In this document: positions 57,899-62,281 of the stretch, in pieces
How positions within the stretch are numbered: position 1 is the first letter of the stretch
How the letters are laid out: each line of letters starts with the position of its first letter
Assembly: GCA_964023205.1 (NCBI GenBank)
Contig: OZ026842.1
Location: 32,748,992 to 32,812,991, forward strand
From: Lutraria lutraria
Taxonomy: Eukaryota; Mollusca; Bivalvia; Venerida; Mactridae
Direction of reading: 5' to 3'
Length of the DNA: 64,000 nt
Notes under the pieces: generated by a model
Seen by the model: the letters and a program-made list of their open reading frames with translations, nothing else
What the model was told of the DNA's origin: nothing
The model's database searches: none
Made by a program: the position numbers and the translations under genes

Positions 57899-60800
57899 CT
57901 GAAAATGCAATGTATTTGCATTAAAATCCATTATATTCAAGTCAACAAATTACATCAGGATTATTTGACAGTCAGTATATTAATCAACAACCACAATTCA
58001 AGATTACTTTGAACAAGCATGAAATAACACTATTAAATGGAATCAATGCATGTTACATTCTTTTTTTTACAGGACTTCACCTTTAGACGAGAGTGCCAGG
58101 TCACAATACGCCCATCAAAATTCATTTTTCAAAGCGTCAAGGGGCATAACTCAGAAGTGCCTGGTCCGATTGGGCTGGTTATCGTATTTGGCCGAGATCT
58201 CATGGCCATAAACATTTCCATCAAGTTTGGTGAGGATCCGAATAAAACTATTTGAATTAGAGTGTGGACACCGTTGTGGATGCCACACTGCTGTTCCAAT
58301 AATACGACCTGTTTTCCAAACGGGTGTATAAAAATGATACAAATATGCTTCGTGCAGAAGCGATCAATACACAAATAAATAAATTCGCAACAAAAAGGAG
58401 ACATCTAAAATATTGCAACTACAAAACAGGTAACCCTGGTAGGAGGACCAATGATTTGTATAATTGACATTAGTTTAGCATCTGAATGAGACACAACAGC
58501 AAGGAACAGCTGTCATGACACTTTAAAATGCATTAAAATGATGACATAGAACTGAAAAGTGTGTTTCAATATCTGTTATCATCAAACTCTGACATAAGCT
58601 AAGAAATGTGACATAACCAAATATAATCAGTGTAACTATAACATCATCTATGGAACACTGATGTAACTTAAGTTACTTCCACATAGCAGAAGGTCAAGAA
58701 TGTTTAAACAGCACTCCTAATTTCAACACTGATATAACAGGTTTAGAAGGCATGCAGTTCTCAGTACAATACAGTATGATACAATTAAATTGTTGTTGTT
58801 TTAAATGACTACAAAATGAAAATATTATAACATTATTTTTACAAAATGAAAAGCTGCATTATTCTCATGTATTCAATGAAATGTTAAAATTTCAAACTAA
58901 TTACCTATGGATATAGTTTTCTCTATTTGCAGGCAAGTCATAATTTATGACTAAAGAAACTTGCTGCACATCAATACCACGTGCAAGAAGATCTGTAGTA
59001 ATGAGTACACGACTGGATCCAGTACGGAACTCTCTCATGATCACGTCTCTCTCCTTCTGATCCATGTCACCGTGCTGTAAAAAATAAACATCCAAATTAG
59101 CTTTTCAAATAATGATGCCAGCCAAAAGGGTTTGATTTATTTGGGTGTTAAGCTGTTTTATATATTTTTTCAGTTATATACGACGTCCAATTCACTTAAG
59201 CAGTTTTCCTGGACTACAACCAGTGAAATTTTTATGGAAAAGTATGACCTGCTGCAACCGGAAATTGAACCAAGATTGCCGGGTTACAAATCAAGCACAC
59301 TTTTTATAAACTAATTTTGTAGTCCACTTGACCTAGTGGACAACCCAACATGGATAGGTCTGCAGTGATGAACAAATGAAATGTTTAATGTTGGTAACAA
59401 ATGCAGTAAGGATTTATTCAGGACAGGTACATGGCAACATATAGCTATGATAGTACAGTCTTACTAAGAATTATTAATGAACTTTTTGAATGTATAAAGA
59501 ATAAGAGGGCTCAGTAATTGTATGCAAAGCTCCAAATCTTTCGAATAAATGCAAATATAGGCCAACTTATTGAGATGGAAACAATCAGAAATATTTCCAC
59601 CTCACCCAAAAGCTAGTCTCAATTCATTATACTTCCATTAGACGGCCATCTTATCTATCAGAGATAAACTGGTGCTTTTAGGAAGACTGAAACTGATCCA
59701 ATGTAACCAAATATTGGCAGAATAGAACATTGATTTGTTTGATTTAAAATACTTAAAAGTGGGTAACTAATGTAGTAGGTACTTCAAATAATCTGGATAG
59801 GTACATGGAATATACAAATGGCTGTGACGGAATGATTTTACTCTGTCTTAGTAACAAAACTTTTTGAATGCATAAAGAATAAGACTGCCTACGAATGTAA
59901 GGCAATCAAATTATGTTTTTATTGTATGTCAAGTTAAAAATCTTTGGAACAAATTCAAATATTGGCCAACTTATTGAGATGGAAACAATCATAATTATTT
60001 CCACCTCACCCAAAAGCTAGTCTCTCTTCATTATACTTCCATTGGACGGCCATCTTATCTATCAGAGATAAACTGGTGCTTTTAGGAAGACATAAACTGA
60101 TCCAATGTGATCAAGTATTGGCAGCGCAGAACACTTGATTCATTTAAACAAAACCATAGGAACTAATTGAAAGTATAGGCCAACTTATTGAGATGGAAGC
60201 AATCAAAATTATTTCCACCTCACCCAAAAGCTAGTCTCTATTTATTCTACTTCCATTGGACGGCCATCTTATCTATCAGAGACAAACTGGTGCTTTTAGG
60301 AAGACATAAACTGGTGTAATGTGACCAAATATTGGCAGAGCAGAACATTGATTCATTTAAACAAAATATTAGGAACTAATTGAGGTATAGGCCAACTTAT
60401 TGAGATGGAAACAATCAAAATTATTTCCACCTCACCCAAAAGCTAGTCTCTATTTATTCTACTTCCACTGGACGGCCATCTTATCTATCAGAGACAAACT
60501 GGTGCTTTTAGGAAGACATAAACTGGTGTAATGTGACCAAATATTGGCAGAGCAGAACATTGATTCATTTAAACAAAATATAAGGAACTAATTGAAGTAT
60601 AGGCCAACTTATTGAGATGGAAACAATCAAAATTATTTCCACCTCACCCAAAAGCTAGTCTCTATTTATTCTACTTCCATTGGACGGCCATCTTATCTAT
60701 CAGAGACAAACTGGTGCTTTTAGGAAGACATAAACTGGTGTAATGTGACCAAATATTGGCAGAGCAGAACATTGATTCATTTAAACAAAATATAAGGAAC

Positions 60801-62281: not shown

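Follow-up and report, generated by a model that had tools for sequence, protein, structure and literature searches.

A tandem array of predicted SNORA21-type H/ACA RNA copies in two introns of the eIF4A gene of Lutraria lutraria

Introduction

An intron of the eIF4A gene of the bivalve Lutraria lutraria contains a 212-bp tandem repeat, which raises the question of whether such a sequence is an ordinary satellite or an array of functional RNA genes. The repeat lies in a stretch of 64,000 nucleotides (contig OZ026842.1 of assembly GCA_964023205.1, positions 32,748,992 to 32,812,991 of the forward strand), here called the window, to which positions refer unless otherwise stated. A preliminary description, made from the letters of this stretch, had proposed that the repeat is an H/ACA snoRNA gene on the eIF4A sense strand, amplified in place. 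Class, strand and amplification in place survived the tests reported below, and the family can now be named as SNORA21/snR10.

The host gene and the copies in its introns

The exons of the host gene, joined at GT/AG signals, give an open frame of 308 amino acids, and the solved proteins that match it best are chains of eIF4A-I (E 3.9e-152), which identifies the host protein as eIF4A-I. From splice sites and exon frames, all on the minus strand, we delimited intron A (59075..62143, 3069 nt), the adjoining coding exon (62144..62281) and intron B (62282-64490 in window-equivalent positions, 2209 nt, of which 62282..64000 lies in the window). Tandem Repeats Finder reports the 212-bp array at 59937-62055 (period 212, 10 copies, 96% matches); another array, with a period of 213, covers 63305-64000. 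The window has two further tandem repeats, a 36-bp minisatellite of about 64 copies at 40106-42372 and a repeat with a period of 144/291 bp at 49321-50061.

Reading the minus strand of the window and of the next 10 kb, a core search and a model built from the copies recovered 17 full copies of an H/ACA-like unit, 132-135 nt each, all of them (17/17) in the sense orientation of eIF4A. Eleven lie in intron A (A1-A11, 59553-62000) and are the units already placed at 59553..62000 on this strand by the preliminary description, which the core search confirmed. The other six, in the preceding intron B (B1-B6, 62534-64070), are new here, as is a decayed copy in the same intron just past the window end (L010:190-261, 17.2 bits with the copy-built model).

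All copies are on the minus strand. In intron A, covariance, alignment and pocket scan place A1 at 61868..62000, A2 at 61656..61788, A4 at 61231..61363, A6 at 60807..60939, A7 at 60595..60727 and A8 at 60383..60515. A3 (61443..61575) is altered at a single stem position, with A for G in the lower stem of hairpin 1, and A5 (61019..61151), which was also folded singly, serves as the type copy, with 5' guide arms at 61140-61145 and 61107-61110, the H box at 61091-61096, 3' guide arms at 61069-61074 and 61035-61038, and the AUA box at 61022-61024. A9 spans 60171..60303, A10 59957..60089, and A11 (59553..59685) is off the 212-bp register. In intron B, the 3' part of B1 is at 63938..64000, its first 70 nt falling past the window end (L010:1-70), followed by B2 at 63726..63858 (covariance, alignment and pocket scan), B3 at 63513..63645, B4 at 63300..63432, the most diverged copy B5 at 62972..63103, and the lone, diverged B6 at 62534..62668. 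The next eIF4A intron has a weak match to SNORA35 at 58454-58533 (30.5 bits, E 0.018, cut-off 39), which is not convincing.

Structure and boxes of the unit

An RNAalifold consensus of the 17 copies recovers the hairpin-hinge-hairpin-tail form, with two hairpins and 39 pairs. Pairing is kept in 97.8% of 506 cells (13 distinct rows), versus 32-50% when the partners are slid by 1-3 columns. Among 500 column shuffles, which disregard the relatedness among copies, the covariation score was reached by 0, the double-change count by 1 and the pair-type count by 46. The double-sided pair changes are three, all in B5: a firm one, C-G to U-A in the 3' lower stem, has the one-sided changes G-U to A-U and U-G to U-A beside it, and the other two fall in hairpin 1, where the alignment is uncertain. 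Folded as single sequences, 13 of the 17 copies have the two-hairpin form as their minimum-energy structure, and B3, B4, A3 and A10 favour an alternative pairing; folding z values range from -2.4 to -4.3 for the seven cores folded, versus +0.8 for the one spacer folded.

The ANANNA pattern of the H box fits in 13/17 copies, the remaining four ending in G (AGAAUG in B3 and B4, AUAAUG in A10 and A11). At the predicted 3' place the box is AUA in 14/17 copies and ACA in 3/17 (B4, B5 and B6). The upper stem is 14 nt from the box in the 3' hairpin of every copy (17/17) and 15 nt in the 5' hairpin of the 12/17 copies where both ANANNA and the 5' guide were found, the 5' hairpin of B5 being excluded. 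In an excerpt of PMC7991803, the H/ACA rule places the target site about 15-16 nt from the box, with at least 3 pairs on each side; the 14 and 15 nt found here, which are counted from the upper stem and not from the target site, and the 6+4 pairs of each pocket agree with this rule. Copy B5 keeps the 3' pocket together with its compensatory stem changes, and has a new 5' hairpin of like form without the 5' guide, so that it is a natural single-guide copy with a possible new 5' target.

The layout of hairpin, box, hairpin and box given in the preliminary description withstood testing, and its 13-15 nt between upper stem and box is corrected to the measured 14 (3') and 15 (5'). Two further details need correction: an H box AGAATA, ascribed to all eleven A units, is present in nine of them (AGAAUA), A10 and A11 having AUAAUG, and the fully paired 10-bp stem of the 3' hairpin holds in ten of eleven, A9 having a single A-C mismatch in the 3' upper stem.

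RNA class and family

At gathering cut-offs, Rfam returned no match for any copy, and a relaxed cmscan gave 84 matches up to E 10. Among these, full-length matches were found to the models of SNORA21 (RF00412; 38.2 bits, E 2.8e-5, gathering cut-off of 80 not reached), snoR74 (41.9 bits, E 5e-4, cut-off of 44 not reached) and ceN82 (38.0 bits, E 6e-4), and the S. pombe snR10 model matched copy B5 with 31.2 bits (E 0.14), which is not significant alone. The covariance search that had been proposed as a check thus did find matching H/ACA models, all under their gathering cut-offs. It counts against the assignment that Afu_182, a fungal sRNA outside the H/ACA class, reaches a similar score (39.1 bits, E 1e-4, nearly full length). 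ACA21, snR10 and snoR74 appear in a table of a chicken study as functional homologs for one 28S site (excerpt of PMC2653536), and for this reason we do not count the SNORA21, snoR74 and snR10 models as independent families.

A search of the whole genome (728 Mb) with the SNORA21 model, in which 41 of 55,083 candidates were scored, gave 17 matches up to E 10, a level at which some match was also obtained in 9/14 control genomes. Fifteen of them fall in the eIF4A array, with 38.2-30.1 bits and E 0.001-0.10 for one genome, and the other two lie on C19 (24.8 bits, E 2.0) and C1 (22.3 bits, E 8.7). In the matched stretch on C19, considered as a candidate lone SNORA21, neither guide was seen. As the search missed B2 and B5, it is no proof against another SNORA21 elsewhere, and a genome-wide search with snoR74, which gave zero matches, likewise indicates that such scans are limited.

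Other classes were also considered. The matches that would suggest a C/D snoRNA or a microRNA, namely snoR17 on the plus strand and MIR1886, mir-2363 and mir-133 on the minus strand, all score 17-24 bits, far under cut-off. An antisense reading was rejected, since the highest score of the copy-built model on the plus strand is 27.7 bits, versus 103-167 bits on the minus strand for the 16 copies that are whole in the window, from which that same model was made.

The results support the reading of the 212-bp repeat, as judged from its sequence, as an H/ACA RNA with two hairpins that belongs with the widely conserved SNORA21, yeast snR10 and plant snoR74. The family is known; the repeat is likely a new member of it, and its host is unusual.

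Guide pockets and predicted rRNA targets

The 28S rRNA of this genome was not found, and a 209-nt fragment of human 28S, taken from an excerpt of PMC12477938 and numbered by its m5C at 4447, was used as target sequence for this reason. A 28S sequence pattern and DNA searches of the genome gave zero matches, so that the rDNA may be missing from the assembly or have been skipped by the search. Of the viral, plasmid and prokaryote collections searched for a 28S copy, two were without a match, and the plasmids gave matches of 60-90% only, bacterial by organism among those shown. For 5.8S rRNA, the only match listed in the genome (L029:1501-1647, on C7) scores 39.7 bits against a cut-off of 42 and is without the usual 5.8S words, which suggests a degraded copy.

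In 17/17 copies, the 3' pocket can form 6+4 pairs with U4500 of human 28S, in the A-loop, and in 16/17 the 5' pocket can form 6+4 with U4431, B5 having neither arm; all these pairs are Watson-Crick. In 7 kb of sequence, the sites expected by chance are 0.001 for the 3' pocket and 0.003 for the 5' pocket when only Watson-Crick pairs are counted, and 0.36 and 0.035, respectively, when G-U pairs are allowed. The A-loop uridine is the site of yeast snR10 (yeast 2923), and 4401 is an old number for human 28S 4431.

Chicken ACA21 is given with 28S-3886 (5' pocket, 6+5) and 28S-3955 (3' pocket, 6+4) in the excerpt of PMC2653536, and the two sites are 69 nt apart both there (3886/3955) and in the human numbering used here (4431/4500). 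Both pockets are therefore predicted to aim at the ACA21 sites of 28S. Human ACA21 is listed with 28S-4401 and 18S-1499 in an extract of PMC6466398, which agrees with the array pockets on the first site but not on the second. The region of the 5'-pocket site is also included in a 28S primer for Drosophila (excerpt of PMC1215480), so that human and fly have this site in common. For the 3'-pocket site, part of PMC7991803 reports that loss of yeast snR10 leads to slower growth and slower pre-rRNA processing.

These observations bear on another reading, in which the repeat is a satellite of the usual kind, or a mobile element of the dispersed type, and its hairpins merely resemble an H/ACA RNA. 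Tandem repeats with stable hairpins are common, and the lack of an Rfam match above cut-off would fit such a repeat. Against it, a DNA search of the genome (728 Mb), in which the best candidates were scored, placed all 12 of the 12 matches listed within the eIF4A array locus and none outside it, by which a dispersed mobile element was rejected; in addition, the best model matches belong to one functional RNA family, at full length and on the sense strand, and both pockets fit the rRNA sites of that family. Together with the flanks of the lone copies described below, this makes a chance resemblance highly improbable.

Constraint and evolution of the copies

Polymorphism was analysed in 12/17 units, each taken with its following spacer; B4-B6, A10 and A11, after which there is no adjoining copy, were omitted. 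Diversity (pi) among the 12 units is 0.019 in the core versus 0.092 in the spacer, about five times lower in the core, and the varying columns number 10/134 in the core versus 20/80 in the spacer (p = 8e-4). An equal spread of mutations, which had been named beforehand as counting against a snoRNA, is thus not what we found. None of the ten varying core columns is in a guide arm and none in the AUA box, and two are in the H box: the first is at a position that ANANNA leaves free, the second (in B3) on the last A, so that constraint is incomplete. The conservation sits on the predicted guide arms and the AUA/ACA box, beyond what structure alone would call for.

The lone and diverged copies tell the same from their flanks. 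Compared with A5, the core of B6 is 85.9% identical and its flanks 52% and 49%, the core of B5 is 73% and its flanks 59% and 51%, and the cores of B4, A10 and A11 are 94-95%, with 3' flanks of 53-56%. On their 5' side, A10, A11 and B4 have flanks that remain similar (77-87%); shuffled 5' flanks, the only flank for which shuffled controls were made, average 47-50% identity. In B4, B5, B6, A10 and A11, homology to A5 drops just past the AUA/ACA box, which by the H/ACA rule would lie 3 nt before the RNA end. Beyond the predicted RNA, the lone copies keep little more homology than chance would give, as would not be expected of a satellite.

In several tandem copies the cores are identical and the spacers near-identical, and the spacers upstream of A3 (61576-61654) and of B4 (63433-63511), which belong to different introns, are identical over 79 nt. 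This identity suggests that sequence was likely exchanged between both introns, across the exon, and the array may have grown by unequal exchange, including between the two introns.

The near-identity of tandem copies is also what a recent neutral expansion would give. It could be that only the outermost or oldest copies make RNA, and that the internal copies of the 212-bp array are passengers or an unprocessed intron remnant; two-snoRNA introns of animals can indeed yield one joined sno-lncRNA, as described in an excerpt of PMC11028025. Among the 12 units, however, none of the variable core columns touches one of the four guide arms or the AUA box, and a core diversity of about one fifth of that of the spacer is unexpected, unless exchange with constrained copies keeps the array clean. 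We regard a passenger array as possible, though doubtful, and prefer the reading in which all 17 copies contribute guide RNA.

Other snoRNA families of the genome

Besides SNORA21 and its plant homolog snoR74, four further families were searched in this genome: U17, SNORA62, SNORA65 and U14. For snR30/U17, an activity in 18S processing is also described (excerpt of PMC7601244). U17 (SNORA73) has eight copies over the cut-off (98.6-106.3 bits versus 74) at C5:13618939-13624972 (L033:2439-8472). Its host is RPS15A (E 9.9e-78 to S15a), where intron 1 has two copies and intron 3 has six, the numbering of introns starting at the first coding exon. The cores of the other seven are 94.5-97.5% identical to copy 6, and 12 of the 14 flanks are at 47-52% and two at 78% and 91%, values given without shuffled controls.

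SNORA62 gave one match in the genome search (42 bits, cut-off 80), and cmscan of that locus on C9 (L038:5024-6257) found four copies with 39.9-42.1 bits, all under the cut-off of 80. Their cores are 97-98% alike, without shuffled controls, and their AUA boxes were identified by eye. The upstream adjoining exon is closest to FUBP2, and the four SNORA62-like copies apparently share one intron of an FUBP-like gene, with splice sites assigned by eye and small exons between the copies being possible. No SNORA65 match was found in the genome search. The single C/D family searched, U14 (SNORD14), shows no intron crowding: the open frames between its three copies (58.8-60.4 bits, just under the cut-off of 64, at C12:24702979-24703983, L034) appear to be exons of HSC70, one of which was tested, indicating one U14 per intron in three neighbouring introns, the usual layout.

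The three H/ACA families detected, of four searched with snoR74 counted together with SNORA21, thus all (3/3) show four or more copies that apparently share an intron, in what is a small sample. The presence of several H/ACA RNAs per intron recurs in this genome, against the usual animal rule. The evidence leaves it evenly balanced whether H/ACA snoRNAs have escaped, as a class, the rule of one snoRNA per intron, with SNORA21, U17 and SNORA62 multiplied 4- to 11-fold in single introns.

The crowding of U17 and SNORA62, with cores that are similarly alike, also speaks against internal eIF4A copies being mere passengers. It has a bearing, too, on a regulatory role of the array, in which hairpins or RNPs in the pre-mRNA would tune the splicing or retention of both eIF4A introns, and rRNA guiding would be secondary. 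Two neighbouring introns are loaded, in sense orientation, as such a role would have it, and cis roles of intronic snoRNAs are reviewed in an excerpt of PMC11028025; yet the guide arms and the AUA/ACA box are conserved, and not just the structure, and elsewhere in this genome it is in unrelated host genes that H/ACA families are crowded into introns. We therefore consider regulation of eIF4A as the main function to be unlikely, and return to the guide function.

Proposed maturation and its implications

Very probably, the 17 SNORA21-like copies are H/ACA sequences that would be spliced out with the eIF4A introns, be bound by the dyskerin complex and guide the pseudouridylation of two uridines of the peptidyl-transferase centre, the sites being predicted from their pockets. 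In the usual animal route, as summarised in an excerpt of PMC11028025, splicing is followed by debranching and by exonuclease trimming to the bound RNP, with predominantly one snoRNA per intron. In the eIF4A array, splicing of the host intron would release the H/ACA copies, to which the dyskerin complex would bind, and debranching and exonucleases would suffice to free the outermost copies, whereas the internal copies would need cuts in the spacers, or else would remain joined as an RNP string. We somewhat favour spacer cutting over RNP strings, because the constraint, as read from the copies, covers the internal ones too. More copies would provide more guide RNA per eIF4A transcript.

Eleven copies in one intron, several of them identical, would call for a step that cuts the spacers or, failing this, for long intron remnants carrying many RNPs, and the crowding is seen again in two other H/ACA families of the genome. 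If the class-wide escape is true, it would imply that maturation includes a cut between neighbouring RNPs of an intron, or that many H/ACA RNPs persist as stable strings; to our knowledge, neither has been established for animal H/ACA RNAs. Since the copies differ at a few positions, among them core positions 21, 57, 98 and 132, and B5 is without one guide, RNA data from the species could tell which copies are released. The array could also show whether copy number sets the modification level of the two peptidyl-transferase-centre uridines. More generally, an intronic 'satellite' can be an array of likely functional RNA genes.

Comparison with known systems

The eIF4A array resembles vertebrate SNORA21/ACA21 (RF00412) in its two hairpins, in its size (131 nt in chicken) and in having both pockets on the same two 28S sites, 69 nt apart, with a 3' pocket of 6+4 pairs. 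It differs in its host: in chicken, SNORA21 lies in intron 3 of RPL23, as one isoform (excerpt of PMC2653536), and in human also in RPL23 (excerpt of PMC6466398), whereas here there are 17 copies in two introns of eIF4A. A further point of comparison with vertebrate SNORA21 is the box, which is AUA in 14/17 array copies. Yeast snR10 is independently transcribed. Yeast snR10 and plant snoR74 are listed with ACA21 as guides of the 3'-pocket site, and their models match the array, snR10 weakly; the 5'-pocket site is, in contrast, listed for ACA21 only in the table excerpted from PMC2653536.

Large local tandem repeats of snoRNAs are also found in mammalian SNORD113-116, but these are C/D RNAs, orphan, and placed in repeated introns of lncRNAs, whereas the array described here is made of many copies of a predicted H/ACA rRNA guide in one intron of a protein gene (SNORD features from an excerpt of PMC11028025). 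In the same excerpt, human H/ACA RNAs are mostly alone in their host gene and the large tandem snoRNA repeats are C/D, and the animal rule of one snoRNA per intron is broken here by intron A with 11 copies and intron B with 6. For snoRNAs of rice and Drosophila, an 'intronic gene cluster' organisation is reported (excerpt of PMC2780460), so that crowding as such is not new. In a literature search of partial coverage we did not meet an H/ACA array of this kind, by which we do not claim its absence from print. The RNA family is known, and the novelty is in the gene arrangement, with many copies of one H/ACA guide per intron, recurring across families.
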